In this document: in pieces, positions 44,518 through 64,000 of the stretch
How the letters are laid out: every line of letters begins with the position of its first letter
Position numbering within the stretch: the first letter of the stretch is position 1
Source of the DNA: an uncultured Ruminococcus sp.
GTDB taxonomy: Bacteria; Bacillota; Clostridia; Oscillospirales; Ruminococcaceae
DNA length: 64,000 bases
Assembly: GCA_902787825.1 (NCBI GenBank)
Contig: CADAHS010000016.1
Location: 8,934 to 72,933, forward strand
Direction: 5' to 3'
The notes under the pieces: generated by a model
Told to the model about the DNA's origin: nothing
What the model saw: the letters and a program-made list of their open reading frames with translations, nothing else
Database searches by the model: none
Program-made: the position numbers and the translations under genes

Positions 44518-45366
44518 TTATAGTATTTTCTCCAATATCTCACGAATATCCCCATTGATAAGAACGCTCTGCTCCGCTATCTCGTCAGGCGCATACGCTT
44601 CACCGAAATTAAGGCAGGCATAGACCGCTTTCGGATTTGCATAGGTCATCTTCCAGAACGGATACTTGATGATAACAGGCGTGTTCATGCCCACACCAAG
44701 CTCCAAAAACAGGATATGCAGTCCATCATGGCGGCGCAGAAATTCATCATAACGCTCTGCCGCTGTGTGCCAGCCCTCGTCCTCTACGAATGTATCATCT
44801 GCCCTGAGGTTCATGCTCATGGGCTTGCCGCAGACAGGACAGTGCGGAACAAGCTCTGACGGAACATGCATATCTTTCTGCTGCTCAAACATCGCCCTGA
44901 CCGTTTTTTCGTTGTCATAGGTCTTTTGGTGACAAGGCTCACTGCACTGCCAAAGCCCGTAATCGCCCTGGGTATAGAAAAGGCGGTGCTTGTCAAATCC
45001 TGCCTTTTGAAACTGGTGATCGACATTTGTGGTGATAACGAAATAGTCCTTGTCTTTCATAAGCTCAAACAGCGTCTTGTATGTGCCGTTGTCCACGTCC
45101 ATATAGCGGTTGATGTAAATGAATCGTGACCAGTACGCCCACTGCTCTTCGGGCGTTTCAAAGGGGTAGAAGCCGCCGGAATACATATCCCGAAAGCCAT
45201 ACTTTGCTTCAAAATCCGAGAAATATTTTTCAAACCTCTCTCCCGAATAGGTAAACCCTGCGGCGGTGGAAAGCCCTGCACCCGCACCGATGACTATCGC
45301 ATCAGCGGTCTGTATTTCTTTTTTCAGACGCTCAATTCCCGCCGAGTAATCTCTTGTAGATCTCAT
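44518..45366 (-). CDS. Class M sirtuin (SirTM), probable protein ADP-ribosyltransferase
   Basis: 282 residues. The NAD-binding GAGAGLSTAAGF (27-38) and TTNVDHQ (N114, D116) are sirtuin motifs. Where deacetylases have the catalytic His the sequence reads YTQGDYG with Gln133, as in SirTMs, which transfer ADP-ribose instead of removing acetyl groups. Cys141, 145, 176 and 179 form the zinc site. The start at 45366 has AAGGAGG and overlaps the macrodomain gene by 35 bases, so the pair is translationally linked. The usual targets of SirTM operons, GcvH-L and LplA2, are not beside it. Confidence 0.88.
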   Translation of the reverse strand: MRSTRDYSAGIERLKKEIQTADAIVIGAGAGLSTAAGFTYSGERFEKYFSDFEAKYGFRDMYSGGFYPFETPEEQWAYWSRFIYINRYMDVDNGTYKTLFELMKDKDYFVITTNVDHQFQKAGFDKHRLFYTQGDYGLWQCSEPCHQKTYDNEKTVRAMFEQQKDMHVPSELVPHCPVCGKPMSMNLRADDTFVEDEGWHTAAERYDEFLRRHDGLHILFLELGVGMNTPVIIKYPFWKMTYANPKAVYACLNFGEAYAPDEIAEQSVLINGDIREILEKIL

Positions 45367-46096
45367 GATCGTCCTCCTTGAATACGTTGAAAATGACCTG
45401 TATATCGTGGCTCTTGCGAAACTCCCTGACGGTGCGGACTGCGATCTGTGCCGCCTTATCCTGCGGAAAGCCGAACACCCCTGTTGAGATACAGCAAAAA
45501 GCTACCGACTGTACATTATTTTGTACAGCTATATCAAGACAGCTTTTGTATGAGCTTTCAAGCAGACGGCAATGTTCATCTGTAAGCCGTCCCTGCACAA
45601 TGGGACCCACCGTGTGTATCACATAGTCACATGGCAGGTTGTAGGCAGGGGTGATCTTTGCCTTACCCGTGGGTTCTTCATGCCCCTGCGCCTGCATCAT
45701 CTGACCGCACTCATACCGCAGACGAACGCCTGCAAAAGTGTGTATGCAGTTGTCGATACAAGAGTGACACGGCTGCCAGCAACCGGTCATTCCCGAATTT
45801 GCGGCATTGACTATCGCACCACATCGGAGCGTGGTAATATCGCCTTTCCAAAGAAATATGCCGTCCTCTATGGGCGACAGATCTGCAATATCCGTGATAC
45901 CCTTGCTCTCGGTCAAGGCTGTGAGATATTCGTCCTCGGCTTGCAGAAAGTCATCACTTGCTTTCACAGCAGGACGGATATTCACAAGGCTTCTGTAAAG
46001 GCGGAATTTATCCTCTTGTGTTTTGGGTATCTTTATCCCGTCAACATTGTTTCTCTCTGACAACAGATAGTTTATAAGGAAATCGATTTTGTTCAT
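45332..46096 (-). CDS. Zinc-type macrodomain ADP-ribosyl hydrolase
   Basis: 254 residues. The macrodomain starts with LWKGDITTLRCGAIVNAANSGMTGCWQPCHSCIDNCIHTFAG, the ADP-ribose loop with a Cys/His-rich insertion as seen in SirTM-linked zinc macrodomains. ITPAYNLPCDYVIHTVGPIV and FCCISTGVFGFPQDKAA follow, the second substrate loop. It should remove the ADP-ribose added by the SirTM encoded next to it. A helical N-terminal region (1-75) precedes it. It forms a two-gene operon with the sirtuin. Confidence 0.9.
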   Translation of the reverse strand: MNKIDFLINYLLSERNNVDGIKIPKTQEDKFRLYRSLVNIRPAVKASDDFLQAEDEYLTALTESKGITDIADLSPIEDGIFLWKGDITTLRCGAIVNAANSGMTGCWQPCHSCIDNCIHTFAGVRLRYECGQMMQAQGHEEPTGKAKITPAYNLPCDYVIHTVGPIVQGRLTDEHCRLLESSYKSCLDIAVQNNVQSVAFCCISTGVFGFPQDKAAQIAVRTVREFRKSHDIQVIFNVFKEDDHEIYKRLLGGN

Positions 46097-54519: not shown

Positions 54520-57165
54520 TTAAAATCCGATCTTCTTTGTCTGGTTCTTGGAAAGATCTATCTTTTCGTCGTTGATATAGTCCTGCACATCGCTGAGTAT
54601 AATGTCATTTCCTCCCTTGTCCTCGGTGCGCAGGTTCTGGTTCATTATAACCTGATCGAGTATATTTCTGACTGTTCGTGCGTTCGCAAAGTTGTCCTGC
54701 TTTCTGAAATGATCTGTAAGGTCAAGCACCAGCCTGAGTGCATCGTCCCTGATGACATAGCCCTTGCCTTCAAGCATTCTCACAGCTATCTCACCAAGCT
54801 CTTCACGGGTATAGTCCTCAAAATCCAGCGTGAACTGAATGCGTGATGCAAGTCCCGGGTTGGTACTTATCATCTCCGCCATTTCGTCTTTATAGCCTGC
54901 CATGATAACGCAGAACTTTCCACGTTTGTCTTCCATCTCTTTCAGCAGAACAGATATTGCCTCGTCGCCGTACTCTGCACTCTTGCTGTCATTTGTCAAT
55001 GCATACGCCTCATCAATAAACAGCACACCGCCCATAGCATCGTTGATTTTTTCAAGCGTCTTTGGTGCAGTAGAACCTACATACTTTCCGATAAGACCGT
55101 GTGCATCGGTCTCTGTCAGTTTTGCTTCGGGCAGAACACCTGCATCATACAAAAGCCGTGAAAGTATCCTGGCAACTTCTGTCTTGCCCGTTCCGGGGTT
55201 TCCGTAAAAGCACATGTGCATATTGAAATCTGCGCTGTCCTTGTTACGCTTTCCATAAGCCTTTATCTTTTTCACCATACGCTTGACAGCGTCAAGCCCG
55301 ACAAGAGCATCAAGTTCCTCATCAGCTGTGAGAATACGCCTGTTGACCTTATCGTTCGTCAGCGGCAAATTAATGCCAGAATCCTTTATGTACTTGTTGA
55401 CATCAACGATCTCGACGTGGCGTTCTTCAGAACCAATACAGCGCAGGCTGTTGTTCATAACTACCTGGTCGATTATATTTCTGATCTCTCTTGCGTTTGC
55501 AAAGTTGGGATCCTTTCGCCTGACATCAGTTATATCAAGCACCTTGTCCATAGCAGGATCACTGATGGAATATTTTCTGTTTCTGAACATCAGCTTTGCT
55601 ATCCTGCCAAGCTCCTCACGGGAGTAGTTGGGGAAATCAAGCTCGAACTGAATGCGGGAACGAAAACCCGGATTGGTTTTTATCATCTCGTTGAGCTTGT
55701 TCTTATAGCCTGCAAGGATAACGCAGAATTTGCCTCTGAAATCCTCCATCGCCTTTATAAGCGTGGCAACAGCCTCGTGACCGTAATCCTGTCCATTATC
55801 ATCAGGCACAAGCGAATACGCTTCGTCAATAAACAGCACACCGCCCATTGCAGCGGCTATGACCTCAAGAGTTTTCTGCGGCGTTTCGCCCATATATCTG
55901 CCAACAAGTCCGCTGCGGTCTGTTTCTATCACCTTGTCTGTCGGCAGCAAACCATTTTCGTGCAGTATTCCAGCAATAATGCGGGCGACCTCCGTCTTGC
56001 CAGTTCCCGGATTTCCGTAAAAGCACATATGCAGGTTGAAATTCTCATCATTTTTATTTGCGAGCGCATATGCCTTTATCTTCTGGATATTGTTTTTAAT
56101 AACATCAAGCCCGATAAGCTCGTTAAGCTTTCGCTCTGCCCTGCCTACAAACAGCTTGCCCTTGTAAAGCTTCATATACATTTTAGGATCCATTTCAAGC
56201 ATCTCGTTGTAGATATCAAAGAGCTTATCCTCGGATTCTTCTTTTAAGAAATCCTCACTGTCTGCAACCTCTCTTGCATCGGCAAATATGCTGTTCATGC
56301 ACTCGCTGATACGCTGCTCACACTCATCCTGCCCAAGCCATTTTTCACCGTTGAAAATATACTCCTTACTTGACCGCAGTATATCCGAGCTGATGATAAC
56401 ATTGACAGCACTCATTACCGCACCGAGCATTTCACCGATCTCTGCAGTGCCATCATCAAATATATCCACCATATACCTTTTTTCAAGTACTCGTTCAAGT
56501 TCCTGCCTGCATTTGGAATAAAGCTCGTCCCACTGCGGATCCTTGCCGAGTTTCATTATCTTCTTTGAGGCAAACGACTTCTCACCGAACAGATTGTTCT
56601 GCTTAATGAACTTCCACAGCTTTGCTATCACCTGTTTTTGCAGTTCAAAAAGCTCATCGGCTTTTCTTACACGTTCATCAAAAGGCGTCACTACATAGTG
56701 CATAACGACTTTCGGCAGCTCAATATCCTTTACTTCGTATCTCTTTCCAAGCACATCAAAAAAGGCATCAAGAGTAAGCTTGTTTTCGATCATATGATCC
56801 TCTGCTTTGTCAAGATCGGCAACAAAACTGTTTTCATAGCTTTTGTGTACATACTCGTTCAGCTGGTCACATGACCTGTTAAGACGGTCAATGAATACCT
56901 CTGTCTTTTCTGCATCGTGAACAAACCTGCTTATTTCGCTGTAGCTTGGGAAACGTGTCAATGCCTCTTTGAGACCACGGAATTCCAGCTCATTCATTTT
57001 AATCGGATCGGTAGAGTACGAATAAATATATCTTCTTATCTCCGAAATGATGAGATCTTTTCTGTCATACGGAGTCTTATACATTGTGAATCCGCAGATA
57101 CTGCAGCTGCAGGGCGTATCGCTCTGCTTTTCTTCACCGCAGGCTATGCACTTGTAAACGTCCAT
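54520..57165 (-). CDS. Double CbxX/CfxQ-type AAA+ ATPase with N-terminal zinc ribbon
   Basis: 881 residues. A zinc ribbon (C6-x2-C9, C21-x2-C24) starts it, then a helical region to about 340. Two complete AAA+ modules follow, each with FYGNPGTGKTEVARI (Walker A, near 385 and 655) and GGVLFIDEAYSL/AL (Walker B), and conserved PGFRSRIQF or PGLASRIQFTLDF sensor stretches. The pair resembles SpoVK/CbxX proteins, hexameric remodelling motors. The ATG at 57165 shares its A with the brxL stop TGA, so it is translationally coupled to BREX. A TTG at 57168 in frame is possible but less likely. Confidence 0.9.
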   Translation of the reverse strand: MDVYKCIACGEEKQSDTPCSCSICGFTMYKTPYDRKDLIISEIRRYIYSYSTDPIKMNELEFRGLKEALTRFPSYSEISRFVHDAEKTEVFIDRLNRSCDQLNEYVHKSYENSFVADLDKAEDHMIENKLTLDAFFDVLGKRYEVKDIELPKVVMHYVVTPFDERVRKADELFELQKQVIAKLWKFIKQNNLFGEKSFASKKIMKLGKDPQWDELYSKCRQELERVLEKRYMVDIFDDGTAEIGEMLGAVMSAVNVIISSDILRSSKEYIFNGEKWLGQDECEQRISECMNSIFADAREVADSEDFLKEESEDKLFDIYNEMLEMDPKMYMKLYKGKLFVGRAERKLNELIGLDVIKNNIQKIKAYALANKNDENFNLHMCFYGNPGTGKTEVARIIAGILHENGLLPTDKVIETDRSGLVGRYMGETPQKTLEVIAAAMGGVLFIDEAYSLVPDDNGQDYGHEAVATLIKAMEDFRGKFCVILAGYKNKLNEMIKTNPGFRSRIQFELDFPNYSREELGRIAKLMFRNRKYSISDPAMDKVLDITDVRRKDPNFANAREIRNIIDQVVMNNSLRCIGSEERHVEIVDVNKYIKDSGINLPLTNDKVNRRILTADEELDALVGLDAVKRMVKKIKAYGKRNKDSADFNMHMCFYGNPGTGKTEVARILSRLLYDAGVLPEAKLTETDAHGLIGKYVGSTAPKTLEKINDAMGGVLFIDEAYALTNDSKSAEYGDEAISVLLKEMEDKRGKFCVIMAGYKDEMAEMISTNPGLASRIQFTLDFEDYTREELGEIAVRMLEGKGYVIRDDALRLVLDLTDHFRKQDNFANARTVRNILDQVIMNQNLRTEDKGGNDIILSDVQDYINDEKIDLSKNQTKKIGF

Positions 57166-59285
57166 CAATAATCAACTCCGAGTGCTTTTTTAGCCGCATC
57201 CAGCGGCGACGTATAAAAGACGACCTTTATCTCGTTTTTTATTCTTTCTGGCAGAGTGTCATACTTATCCCTGAAATCGTCAGGCATAAAGATCCTCTTT
57301 GCACCTGCATTTGCACAGGCAACAAATATCTCGCTGATATCACTTGTAAGCGGCATCATGCTGCCCGACATTACCACCTTGCCGCAGATTATAGTTGAAG
57401 GCATAACAGGACGGTTAGCGAGTGCCGAAAACAGCCCAACGACCTCTGCAACTGAAAGCTCATCACTTGAACCCTTTCCCTGAAGGTCATTGAAGAACAG
57501 GCTGTAATCGTAATCAGCGAATCTGTTTCTGACCAGATTAGCATAAGTTTCACCGCAATAATTGAATGCAGCAATAATGCTTTCCCTGACTGCTTTCGGA
57601 GATTTTCCCAAGCCCTCAACATTCTTGAAGCTGAGCTTTCCGCTTCCGCTGTCAAGCAGCTTATTTTCAAGCCTGTATATGCCGACCTTATCCTCGACAG
57701 ACTTTCCGACAGCATATACATAACCAGGCTTTTCAAAGCCTTCCGGAATAAGCGTGCCGTCTGCTTCTTCGGGAAGATAAACTATATGTTCTTCATTAGT
57801 TTCCAGGTCAATGTATCCCAGTCCTACATCACTGAACTCGGTAGGCTCCATTTTACGAAGCTGCTCTTTCACTCTGCGTCGGCATTCGATCGAATACTCA
57901 AGCAGTTCTTTCATCTCGTCCTTGGTCATAACTTCATCAGGGTACAATAGCTTTGCAAGCCCTGAGAATGTCCTTCTGACAGCCGTTTCATCACGGGTAT
58001 TGAAGTTGCGGTTAAGCTCAAAATACTCGCCGAAGCTGTTGGTGAAATCATACTTTCTCATAGCATGACAATACTCTGAAAAGCAGTCTGAAATAAGCCC
58101 GAAGTGCTGAGTGAACAGGCTTGAACGCAGCTTCGGTGTCTCCCAGCCCGGAAGATATGCGTGTATCCTGTCAAAGAATGCCGAGTCATTATTGAACGAA
58201 TCCGGGAACGGTTCAAACAGATTCGTTGTGCGCAGCATTTCGCCGACTGTTCTGAAAGTGTTGCCCTCAAATGCGATAGATGCATCGCTGCCTATCGATT
58301 CAGAGCCTCTTGCAAACGAACCGTTAGCCATGTAGTTTTTCATTGTCTGAACAAAATCAACGGGAGCTTTTTTCATTCCGCCGACCTCATCAAAAGCAAC
58401 ACAGTCCCAGTTACCTACCAGACCGACTCTGCGTGCAGACAGATTGTAAAACATATTTGAAACAGTCGTCTGTCCGCTGCTCATCAGGATCGAGAACGGC
58501 GAAAGCTCGCTGTAAACATGGCTTTTGCCTGTACCCCTCGGTCCAAGTTCAACGAGGTTATAATTCTTCTGAATGAATGGCACGAATCTGAGCATATAAT
58601 GCAGCTTCTGCTTTTCATCAAGCTCATCAGGCTCGTATCCTGCGGAGCGCAGCATAAGAGATATCCATTCGTCTTTTGTAAACTCTCTCCTTGCATTTAT
58701 TATCTCATCAAGATCAAGATTTGCCATCTGTATCGGTCTTAACGACTCAATGCTAAATGGTGATCCGTACTTTGACTTCTTTTTTCTGCCCCTTTTCTGT
58801 TTTTGCTTGTCGCCGTCAAAGATATCGAAGGTTTCTTCTTCCTGCTGCATATCAGGATCCTTATACTCGATCTTTACTATGCACCAGATACCGCCGATAA
58901 GCAGCTTTTCGTTATGTGAAACAAGGTCAGACTTCACCTCAAACGGTGATATATCAAGGTTTGTAAACTCAGCAATGTACTTGCATTCATCCTCATCAAA
59001 ACGCACAGTTATCTTGTCGATGACCGTGTAGCGGCCTTTTTCCTTGATCTTGTATTTCACATACTCACTCTGATCTGGCTTGACATAATTCTCGGAAAGA
59101 ATTTTCTTTATCTTTTCGATGCCGTTATTTATGATCTCCTCATCATCGGTCGAGCAGTACATTCCAAGTAGATATTCAAGCACATACGTTGGCACATTCG
59201 CTCCACGCTTCATCAGCGCAGTGAGATCCTTTCTTACTATCTTCCCCGGAAAAGTATCTATGACCTTTCTGTCAAGAGCATCCAT
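57165..59285 (-). CDS. brxL: BREX protein BrxL (AAA+ with Lon-like domain)
   Basis: 706 residues. An N-terminal DUF4357-free region (1-175), a basic linker, then the ATPase with GPRGTGKS (248-255), CVAFDEVGGMKKAP and GSESIGSDASIAFEGN. The C-terminal Lon-like region (about 590-706) has SVAEVVGLFSALANRPV and SEIFVACANAGAKRIFMP. By hand alignment the Lon catalytic Ser and Lys positions hold Glu and Ile, so proteolysis is unlikely. BrxL forms a DNA-translocating ring in other systems and is needed for phage restriction. It starts 18 bases after pglZ and overlaps the AAA+ gene by one base. Confidence 0.93.
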   Translation of the reverse strand: MDALDRKVIDTFPGKIVRKDLTALMKRGANVPTYVLEYLLGMYCSTDDEEIINNGIEKIKKILSENYVKPDQSEYVKYKIKEKGRYTVIDKITVRFDEDECKYIAEFTNLDISPFEVKSDLVSHNEKLLIGGIWCIVKIEYKDPDMQQEEETFDIFDGDKQKQKRGRKKKSKYGSPFSIESLRPIQMANLDLDEIINARREFTKDEWISLMLRSAGYEPDELDEKQKLHYMLRFVPFIQKNYNLVELGPRGTGKSHVYSELSPFSILMSSGQTTVSNMFYNLSARRVGLVGNWDCVAFDEVGGMKKAPVDFVQTMKNYMANGSFARGSESIGSDASIAFEGNTFRTVGEMLRTTNLFEPFPDSFNNDSAFFDRIHAYLPGWETPKLRSSLFTQHFGLISDCFSEYCHAMRKYDFTNSFGEYFELNRNFNTRDETAVRRTFSGLAKLLYPDEVMTKDEMKELLEYSIECRRRVKEQLRKMEPTEFSDVGLGYIDLETNEEHIVYLPEEADGTLIPEGFEKPGYVYAVGKSVEDKVGIYRLENKLLDSGSGKLSFKNVEGLGKSPKAVRESIIAAFNYCGETYANLVRNRFADYDYSLFFNDLQGKGSSDELSVAEVVGLFSALANRPVMPSTIICGKVVMSGSMMPLTSDISEIFVACANAGAKRIFMPDDFRDKYDTLPERIKNEIKVVFYTSPLDAAKKALGVDY

Positions 59286-59303: not shown

Positions 59304-61889
59304 TTAAAAATCAAAGTCATCAGCAAAAGCGATATTGATCTTGTAGTCTTCCTTTGCAAGCACTTCCTTGCTATCCTTATCGGCTATGTTAAGATAATAT
59401 ACCTCGCTGTCGCTGAACTGCTCACCTTTCATAGCAAAGTTCACTTTGAAAACTCTGTCCTGAGCATTCTGTGAAACCTTATCAGCTGTAATAGTATGCA
59501 CATCACTAATGATATTTCCGTTTTTATCGGTGAAGTACACCTCAAATGATGCAGCGATCGTCTTGCCCTCAACAGGCTCTACCTGATAGAATCTGATAAA
59601 TACAGACGATGTGGTTATCCTTCTGCTTTCCGCAAGCAGCTGGAGCTGGACTTTCCTTATGTCCACAAAATTCTTTGAATCCGCACGGTAGTTCTTGAAC
59701 TCAATAACAGGAACAACTATTTCCTGCAGACTCATTCCGCCGTGCACATAGTTCACACCACCGCCCTGCATTTTGATCCTTATCGACTCCTGAGGTGCAA
59801 AGCCCTTGTAATCAGTGCCATATCTGTTTAAAGAAACATCAAGCATATACTCTGCATTTGAATCAGCCGAAGTTACAGCATATCGTCTGTCGAGTTCTTT
59901 TATCTCACCCGTAATATGCTGCTTATCAAGTTTTTCGCTCTCCTCAAGCGGACTTCTTGAGTACAAAAATCCGTGATCTGCGGTGATGAGTATGTTTGAA
60001 CCGCTGAGTGTTCCGCAGATCATTTTGACTGCTGACTTGATCTCCTCCATTGCTGTCTCACAAGCCTCAAACACCTGATTTTCGGTAGCAGCCTCTTCAC
60101 CCATTGCATCTATGCTGTTGTGGTAGATATAAACTACATCAGCACCATTGACAAGAGCACGTCTGTCCTCTTTTTTCATAGCCATAAGGTCTGTGTACTT
60201 CACAGCAGTGTTTTTAGCGTTACTTTTTTTGAGGATCTTATCACGATTTGAAGTGCCTGAGGTGCTTGATCCGTCACAGTTGACCTTCATATTGTCTGTT
60301 AACTCAAGATCGCTATGCGGAAGCAGTGCAGCCATTCCATATTTGGTCGCAGAAGGAAAAACAGACTGCATGGAAGAAAGCTTAGCATTACCGTTAGTTT
60401 CAGCAGTAAGTCTTTTTTCAAGCTCCTTTGCTGCTTCGTATCTGAATGCATCGGAGATTATAACATAGGCTCTTGATCCGCCCGAAACTATCGGCTGGAC
60501 CTTGCGCTTATAGAATTCACATTGCTGCTCGATACCCACAAGACACATATCTTCTCTCACATCATCAGTGATAAGTGCAGACCATTTTGAACCGAGCTTG
60601 CAAAGATATTCATTCTTGTATATATTCTCTACCCTTTCAGCAGCTGTCTTGAAAATATCGTCAAGATAGTCGATCGGGTGCTTTACCGAGCGTTCAAATG
60701 CAAGGCAGAACTTTCTGTAATATGTATCAATAAAGCAGAGCTTTTCTGTATACAGCGACCACAATTCGCTATACTGCGATACGTGCAGCTGTGCCATGCT
60801 TTCACGCAGACACTCTATCATCTGTGCAGCGCAGCTGATACCATCATATACATCACGATACTTATCTATCCAGCCGCAGAGCTTTCGGCTCTCACATACG
60901 CTGATAAGTTCATCTGTGCGGATGCTGTCATTTATCAGACCTGAGAACATCTTTTCAAGCAAAAGCTCATCAAAGCAAAGCAGACAGCTGGCACGCTGCA
61001 GAGTTTCGTATTCCAGTGTTCTGAACTTTTCATTAAGCTGCAAACGCTCATTGACTTGTGCTATTATTTCGTACAATACATCACTGTCACCCGAGTGCTG
61101 CCAATCGCTGATAAGAGAATAGCAATTATCACATTTAGAGCTCTGCTCGGAAATATACTTTTCCAAGCCGTCCACCATATCGTCGCCCAGCTCTGATGCT
61201 GCTGCTGAAATGATAACATGCGCCGCAAGCTCATTCAGATCGATCGCTTCACTTGCAAAGCCAACAGAGTTTATCAGCATCTGGCGGAAAGCATCATCAT
61301 TACCGAACTTAGTTATGTTTTCAAGCATATCGCTGTCATCACACCGCAGTGAAGCAATCATCAGCGACTTGATGATCCCTCGGCTGCTGTTATCTTTAAC
61401 GCCGAGAAGTACGGCAATAATATCACAGTTCAGCTGACCGACAGATGTGTAGTTCGTGCCGAAAGCCTTCAGCTTACCCACTCTGTCCTGGCTTGCCAGA
61501 AACTTTGAATAGCCCTTTAAAGCCTTACGGAAATTATGCTCGTCGGGGATGCCAAGATCCTGCATAAACATAGATATCCTGTCAGCACTGAAAGATTCGC
61601 TGTAAAGCTCGATATCGTGCAGCCAGTTGTCCTGGGCTCTGCCGTGTTCGGTGGTGTCGTAGATAAGATAATCACTTTGAGCATCATCGTGCTCGAGCAG
61701 CTTTTTTGCAGTGAAATTATTGCTGCCCGTGAGCTTTAGCAGCTTAACACCGTCAGGTACAAGCTCATCAATAACGTCCTCGAACTCTTTTTCGGGATCG
61801 AACCAGAACACAATGCGACGCTTGTAGAACTCCTGCAGCGGTGCGCTGAAACGCTCGGTAAGATTTTGCTTTATATTTTCAATGGTCAT
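59304..61889 (-). CDS. pglZ: BREX-1 phosphatase-like protein PglZ
   Basis: 861 residues, typical for type A PglZ. The N-terminal RIVFWFDPEKEFEDVI is the family start. The alkaline-phosphatase-like core holds YVIISDAFRYEAAKEL (about 478-494) and ILITADHGFLYSRSPLEE (about 640), with the metal-binding Asp and His. A C-terminal beta-rich region ends it. PglZ is essential for BREX modification and defence. It lies between the C-terminal part of pglX and brxL, the canonical type 1 order, with gaps of only 15 and 18 bases. Confidence 0.95.
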   Translation of the reverse strand: MTIENIKQNLTERFSAPLQEFYKRRIVFWFDPEKEFEDVIDELVPDGVKLLKLTGSNNFTAKKLLEHDDAQSDYLIYDTTEHGRAQDNWLHDIELYSESFSADRISMFMQDLGIPDEHNFRKALKGYSKFLASQDRVGKLKAFGTNYTSVGQLNCDIIAVLLGVKDNSSRGIIKSLMIASLRCDDSDMLENITKFGNDDAFRQMLINSVGFASEAIDLNELAAHVIISAAASELGDDMVDGLEKYISEQSSKCDNCYSLISDWQHSGDSDVLYEIIAQVNERLQLNEKFRTLEYETLQRASCLLCFDELLLEKMFSGLINDSIRTDELISVCESRKLCGWIDKYRDVYDGISCAAQMIECLRESMAQLHVSQYSELWSLYTEKLCFIDTYYRKFCLAFERSVKHPIDYLDDIFKTAAERVENIYKNEYLCKLGSKWSALITDDVREDMCLVGIEQQCEFYKRKVQPIVSGGSRAYVIISDAFRYEAAKELEKRLTAETNGNAKLSSMQSVFPSATKYGMAALLPHSDLELTDNMKVNCDGSSTSGTSNRDKILKKSNAKNTAVKYTDLMAMKKEDRRALVNGADVVYIYHNSIDAMGEEAATENQVFEACETAMEEIKSAVKMICGTLSGSNILITADHGFLYSRSPLEESEKLDKQHITGEIKELDRRYAVTSADSNAEYMLDVSLNRYGTDYKGFAPQESIRIKMQGGGVNYVHGGMSLQEIVVPVIEFKNYRADSKNFVDIRKVQLQLLAESRRITTSSVFIRFYQVEPVEGKTIAASFEVYFTDKNGNIISDVHTITADKVSQNAQDRVFKVNFAMKGEQFSDSEVYYLNIADKDSKEVLAKEDYKINIAFADDFDF

Positions 61890-61904: not shown

Positions 61905-62909
61905 TTACTTGATTTTCTCCAGAATGTCTGAAAGCTTTTCGTAGTTATTCTTTACGCCGTCATCAAGGTCAAGCGGTATCATCGAATCCGCAAGGTGTTT
62001 GACCTTTGGCTCGTAAGCGGCGATCTCATCGGATTGTGTACGCAGTTTTTCCAGCTGCTTTTTGAGGCGTGACTGCTGTGCACCCGATGCCGATACGAGC
62101 TGAGACTCCAGCATTTCTATCTGCGTGTGGTAACGCTCCTGAAGCTCGTGAACGTAGTTCGTTCTGACAGTTGCAACGGTGTCGGGGCGGTAGCGGTGAA
62201 TATACATCAGCGCCTTGAAGCCGTGTTTTTTGCCCGAGCTGAAAAGCCAGTAGATCGGACGTTTCTGATAGATCTTGCAGTGGTCTGCGTAAAAATCGTT
62301 CAGAAAATAGCTGCGTATCTTTTCCCTAGCGCCGTCGCCCTTTGTGCCGAGAGCGTCAGCGACAAAATTGAGGTTTTCCTCAAGGGTGTCCTCGCCGTAA
62401 ACGACCTTAACGAACTCGACAAAGCGGGTGGTTGCATCGTCACGGAAATACTCGTCATCGCAGATCGGGATAACATTGTCGCTGTCGGGCGGGAAAATGC
62501 ACTTTTCCCAGGCACCGTCAATAAATATCTCATCGTAGACTTTTTTCTTGACATTCAGCGCCCTGCCCGCCTCGGAGAGCGCCTCCTCCTGCTGATTTTT
62601 CGACTCCTCGCTTTCACGGAACGCATCGCCCCACTCGCCGCCTGCGAACACCAGCCCTTTGCGCTGAACGCTGTAACGCCCGAACATACAGCCCACAGCG
62701 TAGCTGACAAGGCTTTTGATCTCACGGGTGAGGTCGGCACGGCGCACGGTCACGTCCCTGTCCTCGACCTCGGGTGTCAGCTCGCCGCCCAAGCCGTAAA
62801 TGTCGATAAAAATGCGGTTGAGTTCTTCCTCGTTCGCCTTTAGCTTCTGGAAACGTGCTTCGCATTCGGATTCCCATTTCTTGTATTTATCGGATATTAG
62901 TGTTCCCAT
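61905..62909 (-). CDS. pglX: C-terminal part of BREX methyltransferase PglX
   Basis: 334 residues matching the end of PglX (usually about 1200 residues). WESECEARFQKLKANEEELNRIFIDIYGLGGELTPEVEDRDVTVRRADL is the helical region just after the specificity domain. RFVEFVKVVYGEDTLEENLNFVADALG and HCKIYQKRPIYWLFSSGKKHGFKALMYIHRY follow. The methyltransferase and specificity domains are missing; they are on a separate frame beyond a phosphoribosyltransferase gene. This piece has its own ATG with GGAGTGAGG overlapping the upstream stop, so it may be made as an independent subunit. Confidence 0.9.
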   Translation of the reverse strand: MGTLISDKYKKWESECEARFQKLKANEEELNRIFIDIYGLGGELTPEVEDRDVTVRRADLTREIKSLVSYAVGCMFGRYSVQRKGLVFAGGEWGDAFRESEESKNQQEEALSEAGRALNVKKKVYDEIFIDGAWEKCIFPPDSDNVIPICDDEYFRDDATTRFVEFVKVVYGEDTLEENLNFVADALGTKGDGAREKIRSYFLNDFYADHCKIYQKRPIYWLFSSGKKHGFKALMYIHRYRPDTVATVRTNYVHELQERYHTQIEMLESQLVSASGAQQSRLKKQLEKLRTQSDEIAAYEPKVKHLADSMIPLDLDDGVKNNYEKLSDILEKIK

Positions 62910-62918
62910 TGTTATTCC

Positions 62919-63497
62919 TCACTCCAACTCAACTTGTGTTTTTTCGGTTCTGAAAATAGAAATACATACAATTCCAACATTAGGGTTTGTTTTTCTAATT
63001 GATTGAATACATTCTCTAAATGTTGTTCCACTATCAACAAAATCATCAATCAAAAGAATGTAATCATCAGCATCAAAAGTGTAATTACATGATATAAACC
63101 CTGTTTCACTTTTTCTTGTACTAATAGGCTCTATTTTTTTCATTTTGAAACTTCGGTTCTTTTGCAAAGCATCAATGTATCGCAAATTTATTATCGGAGC
63201 AATCAGCTTAACAATGTAATTGAAATTATGGCTGGGTACTGGAACTATACAATTACACTTAGAGAACAAAGTATTGTTCTTTTCCAAAATTGCAGAAATA
63301 TCGTCCGCAATTTCTTTTTTTAATTCAACCTTTGAATAATACTTATACTTACGGTATTTATCACTTAGCTCTTTGCTTATGTCATCAATATTAACAAATT
63401 CATCAATATACTGATCAAGTGTGTATATCATTCCCGCGCTTTTGCTACTATGAAACATAGATGACTTATAATCAGGGTGTTTATCCATTTTTGACAT
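62919..63497 (-). CDS. ComF-like phosphoribosyltransferase inserted in pglX
   Basis: 192 residues. The PRPP-binding motif YILLIDDFVDSGTTFRECI (near residues 142-160) is intact, and IVPVPSHNFNYI upstream resembles the ComF/PRTase hood pattern. The base or substrate is unknown. It starts 11 bases after the stop of the PglX N-terminal part and ends within the ribosome site of the PglX C-terminal part, so it is in the same operon. The DNA is clearly more AT-rich than 61.9-62.9 kb. It may alter nucleotide or DNA chemistry for defence, or be a passenger gene. Confidence 0.85.
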   Translation of the reverse strand: MSKMDKHPDYKSSMFHSSKSAGMIYTLDQYIDEFVNIDDISKELSDKYRKYKYYSKVELKKEIADDISAILEKNNTLFSKCNCIVPVPSHNFNYIVKLIAPIINLRYIDALQKNRSFKMKKIEPISTRKSETGFISCNYTFDADDYILLIDDFVDSGTTFRECIQSIRKTNPNVGIVCISIFRTEKTQVELE

Positions 63498-63508
63498 AAC
63501 TCTACCTC

Positions 63509-63973
63509 CTATATCAACGGGTGCCTTTCAAAATCCCAGCTTGTTTCAAAGCTGTCCCAGTCTTGCTTTGATAAATCCGTGTTTTCTTCAGCAAGTTTAT
63601 CTACTATATCTTTTTTTGATTCATCAATTATGATTGGTAAATTTGAAATATGACCAACCTCATACGTAATAGTAGGAGCAATTATTTCAAATATTTTTCT
63701 TGCAACAATGCTATTATACAAACCAAGTAAATAATAGACTTGCTCACCGAAGATTGCAGGTCCACGAGCACCCTGAATAAAACCTGAGCCTAACAACCTA
63801 AATGATGGAATACCCGATGTAATATTTGTCCAAGTAACACCTGGGAGAAAATAATAATCCATGTTTTGTGGTCTAGATGCAAGACGACCATTTTGTCCGT
63901 AAAAATGTCTAATCTCATATCCATCATTATACCAATCTACAATATACTCAAGGTTTCCGTACCACTTTCTCAA
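63509..63973 (-). CDS. pglX: PglX, methyltransferase/specificity part (C-terminal 154 residues in window)
   Basis: The frame runs off the right edge; only the end is seen. RLLGSGFIQGARGPAIFGEQVYYLLGLYNSIVARKIFEIIAPTITYEVGHISNLPIII is the TaqI-like/specificity-type end of PglX adenine methyltransferases, followed by WDSFETSWDFERHPLI and a stop. In standard PglX this SWDFxRHPL segment continues straight into the region found at 61905-62909. Here a stop codon intervenes, so the protein is divided into two. The listed start (63973) is not the real one. The true 5' end lies outside. Confidence 0.88.
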   Translation of the reverse strand: MRKWYGNLEYIVDWYNDGYEIRHFYGQNGRLASRPQNMDYYFLPGVTWTNITSGIPSFRLLGSGFIQGARGPAIFGEQVYYLLGLYNSIVARKIFEIIAPTITYEVGHISNLPIIIDESKKDIVDKLAEENTDLSKQDWDSFETSWDFERHPLI

Positions 63974-64000
63974 TTCGCCACCTTTTGTATGAGGAAACCA

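Follow-up and report, generated by a model that had tools for sequence, protein, structure and literature searches.

A type 1 BREX operon of Ruminococcus in which pglX is split around an exchangeable cargo gene

Genes of the locus and the place of the cut

The window, a 64,000-nucleotide stretch of a contig from an uncultured Ruminococcus sp., ends within a minus-strand operon that continues on the contig. The operon has the order brxA-brxB-brxC-pglXN-PRTase-pglXC-pglZ-brxL, followed by a gene for a double-AAA protein resembling SpoVK/CbbX (Table 1), and thus holds the type 1 BREX set of brxA, brxB, brxC, pglX, pglZ and brxL. The two PglX parts, PglZ and BrxL were identified by profiles, and brxA, brxB and brxC were named from their position and from comparison with other BREX operons rather than by profile search. 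All BREX frames of the operon are open and full-length. PglX, usually a single polypeptide in type 1 BREX, is encoded by two genes that flank a gene for a phosphoribosyltransferase (PRTase); the intergenic gaps are 11 bases (pglX-N/PRTase) and 9 bases (PRTase/pglX-C). The frames, coordinates, direction and gap sizes given for these three genes in the initial annotation were all confirmed, as was a ribosome-site-like stretch before the ATG of pglX-C; the PRTase gene also has one.

Table 1. Features of the locus, in window coordinates unless prefixed L002 (the operon locus as extended beyond the window)
Feature	Position	Strand	Length	Remarks
BREX leader (candidate)	L002:19709-19881			upstream of brxA on contig G000:C16; outside the window
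pglX-N, full gene	L002:14971-12443	(-)	842 aa	start lies outside the window; NPPY at residue 467
pglX-N, 3′ part	63509..64000	(-)		end of TRD half and predicted first spacer helix
PRTase cargo gene	62919..63497	(-)	192 aa	
pglX-C	61905..62909	(-)	334 aa	separate gene for the predicted second spacer helix and the PglX C-terminal region; PADLOC PglX profile 7.5e-128
Exchanged block, in-window part	62862..64000	(-)		TRD half, cargo and first ~16 codons of pglX-C; other border ~64,600 (window-extended coordinates), directly past the NPPYMGG codons
pglZ (type A)	59304..61889	(-)	861 aa	PF08665 2.8e-61; TIGR02687 2e-188
brxL	57165..59285	(-)	706 aa	BrxL_ATPase 2.8e-130; TIGR02653 3.4e-241
SpoVK/CbbX-like double-AAA gene	54520-57168	(-)		directly after brxL
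Sirtuin-like and macrodomain-like genes	44518-46096	(-)		overlapping; named by eye from translations

The two PglX parts fit one profile (PADLOC PDLC02521) without overlap, the N part reaching position 869 and the C part starting at 878, and the NPPY methyltransferase, TRD, spacer and C-terminal region are all present across them. PglX-N ends in SWDFERHPLI followed by the stop at 63509 (tail DWDSFETSWDFERHPLI) and its alignment with Salmonella PglX (8c45 chain) extends to residue 885. The predicted model of PglX-C (pLDDT 73.3) opens with a helix (residues 5-38) and resembles the solved PglX/BrxX structures 8c45, 9ewz, 8q56, 8zek and 9ex7 (TMq 0.71-0.75). Since the N part ends at Salmonella residue 885 and the C-part model begins with this helix, the cut most likely lies close to the turn that joins the two spacer helices of PglX.

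Three features outside the core genes were also observed. The leader upstream of brxA consists of a TTGACA-N17-TACAAT promoter-like site followed directly by a (GACA)n repeat and then by a 20-bp terminator-like hairpin, with counterparts at L063:1932-1988 and at about 418-432 of L062. The repeat has 17.2 copies at the window operon, 14.2 in RUG060 and, by eye, about 3 in FC2018, which makes this a candidate for a phase-variable, attenuated leader. The SpoVK/CbbX-like protein, possibly an extra BREX-linked gene product, has a 98.5% identical counterpart in FC2018; in R. callidus, brxL is followed at a contig end by the first part of a related protein (38% over 106 aa). Elsewhere in the window, the overlapping sirtuin-like and macrodomain-like genes look like a macrodomain-linked sirtuin pair.

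Recurrence of the split and the genes in the gap

Among the best 80 of 310 matches to an alignment headed by the split sequence of the window, pglX was split at the same place in 20 loci. The contig includes pglX-N in 18 of these; the other two (L081 and L090) were counted with pglX-N off the contig. The other loci comprised 53 with fused pglX, four orphan pglX-C genes and three broken genes. Because the window's split sequence led the query alignment, 20/80 overstates the prevalence of the split. The carriers are gut bacteria, among them cultured isolates: Ruminococcus sp. FC2018, R. callidus and two Pseudoflavonifractor. At the genus level, 4 of 29 genomes matched, all four with frames of the short, split size (310-340 aa). 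The family sample gave 24 matching genomes out of 297, and seven of the 18 that were read are split; the six unread matches have match frames of 612-1258 aa. Five of the 12 matching genomes in the order sample (394 genomes) and three of the 44 in the phylum sample (398 genomes) are split, G1070 and G952 being frameshift-like and most other phylum matches having been judged by the open-frame column alone. Repeats were dropped (L044=L062, L045=L065, L047=L073, L048=L118, L189=L122, L190=L116), and matching coordinates and identity led us to take G312 as L093 and G309 as L063.

An assembly error or a frameshift was rejected as the source of the split, which is found in many other assemblies and differs from the frameshift-like pglX breaks of L194-L196, where the frames overlap, the same protein continues and no cargo is present; in L193 a fused frame is ended by the contig edge. 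We also rejected a single origin: the split and fused labels on the pglX-C tree require 10 changes, at least five of them forced by well-supported branches (the mean for shuffled labels was 24, and the bootstrap was not fully settled). Since the start signature described below sits inside the block that is exchanged, these repeated changes likely come from spread by recombination.

The junction itself is conserved. The N part ends in PL[VI] and a stop at the same place in 22 of 24 cases (L069 is 14 residues longer and L118 ends in PLT and a stop), and the stop is merged with TGAGG in 11 of the 24. A start signature resembling MGTLISDKY was found in all 28 split C parts and in 4/4 orphans, as compared with 0/53 fused and 0/3 broken genes; this pattern was written after the rows had been viewed, and one of the 28, G329, lies in a decayed operon. 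Among the window locus, FC2018 and RUG060, pglX-C has a dN/dS of 0.16-0.21, indicating purifying selection, with values of 0.11-0.13 for pglZ and 0.09-0.13 for brxC in the same three genomes. The orphan genes, with no pglX-N directly in front, lie at L107:9995-10888, L112:8793-9680, L097:3859-4743 and L104:9977-10966; the stretch inspected around those of L107 and L112 showed no BREX gene. The orphans may be remnants or solo genes with another use.

At least one open reading frame precedes pglX-C in 24 distinct split loci, including the window locus and three (L081, L090 and L197) in which pglX-N is off the contig. When only split loci with pglX-N in view were considered, the gap was filled in 21 of 24, L068, L071 and G108 having no cargo frame. 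The commonest cargo is a DUF2971 protein (PADLOC PDC-S31; L066, L067, L116, L118, L126 and, weakly, L125), and a second protein resembling this cargo lies between pglX and pglZ in L116. In PADLOC naming the PDC prefix denotes candidate defense genes, and DUF2971 is a candidate BREX-linked effector family. DUF559 cargos occur in L070, L079, L090 and L197. The cargos of L063, L064 and L093 share an R[ND]xFAH motif that we read as HEPN, with one weak Pfam match (L064, E 0.01, below cut-off), and a clear pEK499_p136 HEPN protein is encoded by the second gene in L199. The remaining assignments were AAA_21 plus DUF4276 (HEC-01A/B) in L069, weak RES-like matches below cut-off in L122 and L191, RhuM (PDC-S05) as second gene in L067 and Schlafen AlbA_2 as second gene in L191. 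The short frame of L081 gave a weak match only, and the cargos of L062, L046, L073 and L192 match no family, that of L046 appearing EVE-like by eye with no Pfam match. The majority of the classifiable cargos resemble defense or toxin families. Some of these cargos may be listed in a 2024 preprint by Payne et al. that reportedly treats defenses embedded in immune systems.

The PRTase is the cargo of the window locus and of R. callidus, the latter protein being 36% identical to the former. The window protein contains the PRPP-site-like motif ILLIDDFVDSGTT, and a motif of this kind is kept in both PRTases. The predicted model of the window protein (pLDDT 68.7, from 2 sequences) resembles PurF, ComF and ShosT chains (TMq 0.40-0.50), and motif and predicted fold are those of a type I PRTase. 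The initial annotation called the protein ComF-like, and this holds at the level of the fold only: the NCBIfam comF profile (TIGR00201) scored 21.2 bits against a cut-off of 233.55. The closest profiles were PRTase-CE (5.3e-6; 26.9 bits, cut-off 27) and the PADLOC profiles for the retron PRTase_III-A (1.3e-11), PsyrT (2e-8) and ShosT (3.2e-7). A PDB sequence search gave nothing below E 0.02, and 27 stretches in viral contigs fitted a sequence pattern for PRTase relatives, with none confirmed. Matches were present in 10 of 297 genomes of the family sample, namely the window's own, the R. callidus cargo and eight that were 23-33% identical. The absence of the pglX-N/PRTase/pglX-C order from relatives, with the PRTase only elsewhere, had been named beforehand as grounds for doubt; this doubt is removed by R. 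callidus, which has the three genes in that order.

ShosTA and PsyrTA carry an adjacent antitoxin gene, DprA-like or RecQ-like, and retron type III-A carries an adjacent reverse transcriptase gene and an msr-msd RNA. On the basis of gene neighborhood, we rejected assignment of the locus to either class: the genes on both sides of the PRTase encode PglX parts, and its neighbors are all BREX genes. The PRTase is related to the toxin PRTases and is most likely a second-line antiphage effector.

Exchange of the specificity block

Identity among the window genome, FC2018 and RUG060 was scored per 150-bp bin over the region spanning brxC to pglZ. Outside a block extending from ~64,600 to ~62,862 (codon 16 of pglX-C), 153 of 171 bin values were at least 96%, the lowest being 88%. 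Inside the block, identity fell to 21-77%, with 35 of 39 values between 30 and 70. The exchanged unit of ~1.7 kb consists of the methyltransferase part past NPPY, the TRD and the gap gene, and the cargo is different in each of the three genomes. The TRD part has a G+C content of 36-38% and the cargo one of 29-34%, as compared with 51-52% for the flanking pglX parts. A second set of loci (L116, L125, L122 and L192) displayed the same pattern with unlike cargos, although the cargos of L125 and L116 may be distantly related and this pair has a blurred left border. These data show that the TRD and the cargo are exchanged together among close relatives, presumably by recombination. The suggestion in the initial annotation of a cassette exchange of the target-recognition half is thus strongly supported, with one refinement: the block that is exchanged also takes in the inserted gene.

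Fused pglX genes undergo a corresponding exchange. In all ten fused pairs compared (eight sets), identity dropped in the TRD part and recovered at or just past the position at which the C part starts. The left border lay at NPPY in most pairs, later in L113-L132 and much earlier, and blurred, in L098-L101. The TRD exchange of fused pairs thus stops at this right border too, which places the split on the boundary of a natural specificity-exchange unit, and a cut at this border allows an accessory gene to ride inside the unit. Five draft genomes searched for silent TRD copies each had a single TRD locus (present in G309 as two pieces of one gene), a result that favors exchange with other cells. 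In L064, a 52-nt remnant of a pglX-C start (L064:4371-4422, 73% identical to L064:4952-5003) lies directly behind the HEPN-like cargo, and the intact pglX-C starts 581 bp past it with other DNA between; this remnant is perhaps a trace of a past block arrival or exchange.

Over long distances the TRD and cargo mix freely and are not strictly paired. Same-cargo pairs were no closer in the TRD half (N2-N1 of -13.1 versus -14.9), and L065 and L118 have a TRD half in common (at 63%) while carrying a PRTase and a DUF2971 cargo, respectively. We also counted the use of the other accessory slots, in a set cleaned of duplicates, orphans and masked rows. The pglX-pglZ slot was used in 10 of 26 split as compared with 37 of 50 fused operons (Fisher p 0.003, kinship not corrected). 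For the brxC-pglX slot, the corresponding counts were 3 of 23 and 20 of 47 (Fisher p 0.016, kinship not corrected). This lower slot use in split operons suggests a shift of the accessory gene into the specificity block.

Models for the divided PglX and its cargo

We consider it probable that the locus represents a variant of type 1 BREX with a working two-polypeptide PglX, cut at the spacer, and an interchangeable effector inside the specificity-exchange block. PglX-N would supply the methyltransferase and TRD, and PglX-C the conserved C-terminal region together with the second spacer helix; the two spacer helices probably bring the parts together again, and these would then act as an ordinary PglX. 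Homologous recombination near NPPY on the left and at the pglX-C start on the right would swap the TRD and cargo together, so that replacement of the block would change the BREX target specificity while the cargo would provide a second line of defense. The possibility of a two-subunit PglX, raised in the initial annotation, gains from the recurrence of the split, the conserved junction and the selection on pglX-C; physical assembly of the parts is our inference. A point against this model is that the C-terminal domain of Salmonella PglX alone, TRD included, could not be expressed, according to PMC11341690. Further points against it are the three cargo-less splits, the lack of a tie between TRD and cargo, the occurrence of some cargo families in the pglX-pglZ slot, the blurred left borders (L116-L125 and L098-L101) and the four cargos that match no family.

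A working two-gene PglX might instead accommodate a cargo that has no link to BREX, an independent defense gene merely using a permissive gap. We regard this as a real possibility that falls short of being probable. The cargo changes freely and unpaired with the TRD, some cargo families also occur between pglX and pglZ, and three splits have no cargo, all of which would be expected of such a passenger. However, the gap is seldom empty and its classifiable genes are mostly toxin- or defense-like, although this reading is still compatible with both findings.

Somewhat unlikely, by analogy with PrrC, is that the cargo is a latent suicide effector that the PglX complex would silence and that would be freed when a phage protein such as Ocr blocks PglX. 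PrrC is embedded in EcoprrI and is freed on inhibition (PMC3874165; see also PMC12707154), DarTG2 lies between hsdS and hsdR (PMC12255303), and the locus studied here likewise contains an effector-like gene embedded in a modification operon. Ocr is described as binding PglX (PMC11341690, PMC11842806) and as contacting the TRD in E. coli BrxX (PMC11842806), and the cargo lies in the specificity block and adjoins the TRD. In the window locus, L065, L063 and L093, moreover, the PRTase or HEPN-like gene stands alone in the gap with no antitoxin-like neighbor. In contrast, the DUF559 cargos and those with no family match are unlike latent toxins, and the free mixing of cargo and TRD argues against a close fit of the one to the other. 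A more elaborate and rather doubtful extension is that split-PglX BREX is a plug-in platform in which one recombination event would bring both a new specificity and an abortive effector, the two-piece PglX silencing the effector as long as neither a phage inhibitor nor a failed BREX reaction disturbs the complex, and in which the cut would have evolved to place the effector in the block.

It is very improbable that the PRTase is a dedicated PglX subunit that, for example, makes or alters a cofactor or DNA mark. The PRPP-site-like motif is kept in both PRTases and the gene order recurs in R. callidus, but FC2018 and RUG060 hold unrelated proteins in the slot while their BrxC, PglZ and BrxL are 98-100% identical to those of the window. 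The added enzyme envisaged in the initial annotation is likewise not borne out as a fixed partner of PglX, as only one other PRTase was found among the 24 cargo loci. That pglX simply broke and left the remnants of a dead BREX can hardly be right: relatives do hold decayed BREX operons (L055 and L198) and the frameshift-like breaks noted above, but the window frames are intact, the junction with its start signature is kept across genera and pglX-C is under purifying selection, in agreement with the initial view that this is not simple decay.

If the preferred model of an effector inside the exchange block is correct, joint exchange of specificity and effector would be a new route of defense-system diversification. 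A natural two-piece PglX also offers separable subunits with which to probe PglX-BREX contacts and the role of the conserved C-terminal region, and inspection of the gap between pglX-N and pglX-C provides a rule for finding effectors.

Searches of open-access papers gave no description of this arrangement, in agreement with the initial annotation. In the sections covered of a 2026 survey of BREX (Rakesh & Krishnan 2026, PMC12839542), neither a divided PglX nor an effector within pglX nor joint exchange of TRD and effector is mentioned, and the words 'split', 'PRTase', 'DUF2971', 'DUF559', 'truncated' and 'recombination' are absent from its main text. The locus resembles the type 1 BREX of E. 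coli and Salmonella (PDB 9ewz, 8c45, 8q56) in its core families and their order, and its two PglX parts can be aligned to opposite ends of the solved PglX chains; unlike those systems, in which PglX is one polypeptide, it has two genes with cargo between. Accessory effectors in or beside the core genes also recall the auxiliary or backup effectors described for BREX loci, where PARIS-like modules were proposed to be an answer to Ocr (PMC12839542). The PRTase is similar in sequence to ShosT, PsyrT and the retron III-A PRTase over the PRTase core and resembles ShosT (8zvd/8zvb) in predicted fold, but its neighbors are BREX genes, with no adjacent antitoxin or reverse transcriptase gene. Type I R-M systems with an embedded effector (PrrC in EcoprrI; DarTG2 between hsdS and hsdR) share the placement of an effector beside the specificity gene, and crossing-over in the DNA for the HsdS dimerization helix, next to the TRD, is reported to have made new specificities (PMC3874165). 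Unlike type I R-M, in which M and S are ordinary separate subunits, the BREX described here has one enzyme that is cut at its spacer.
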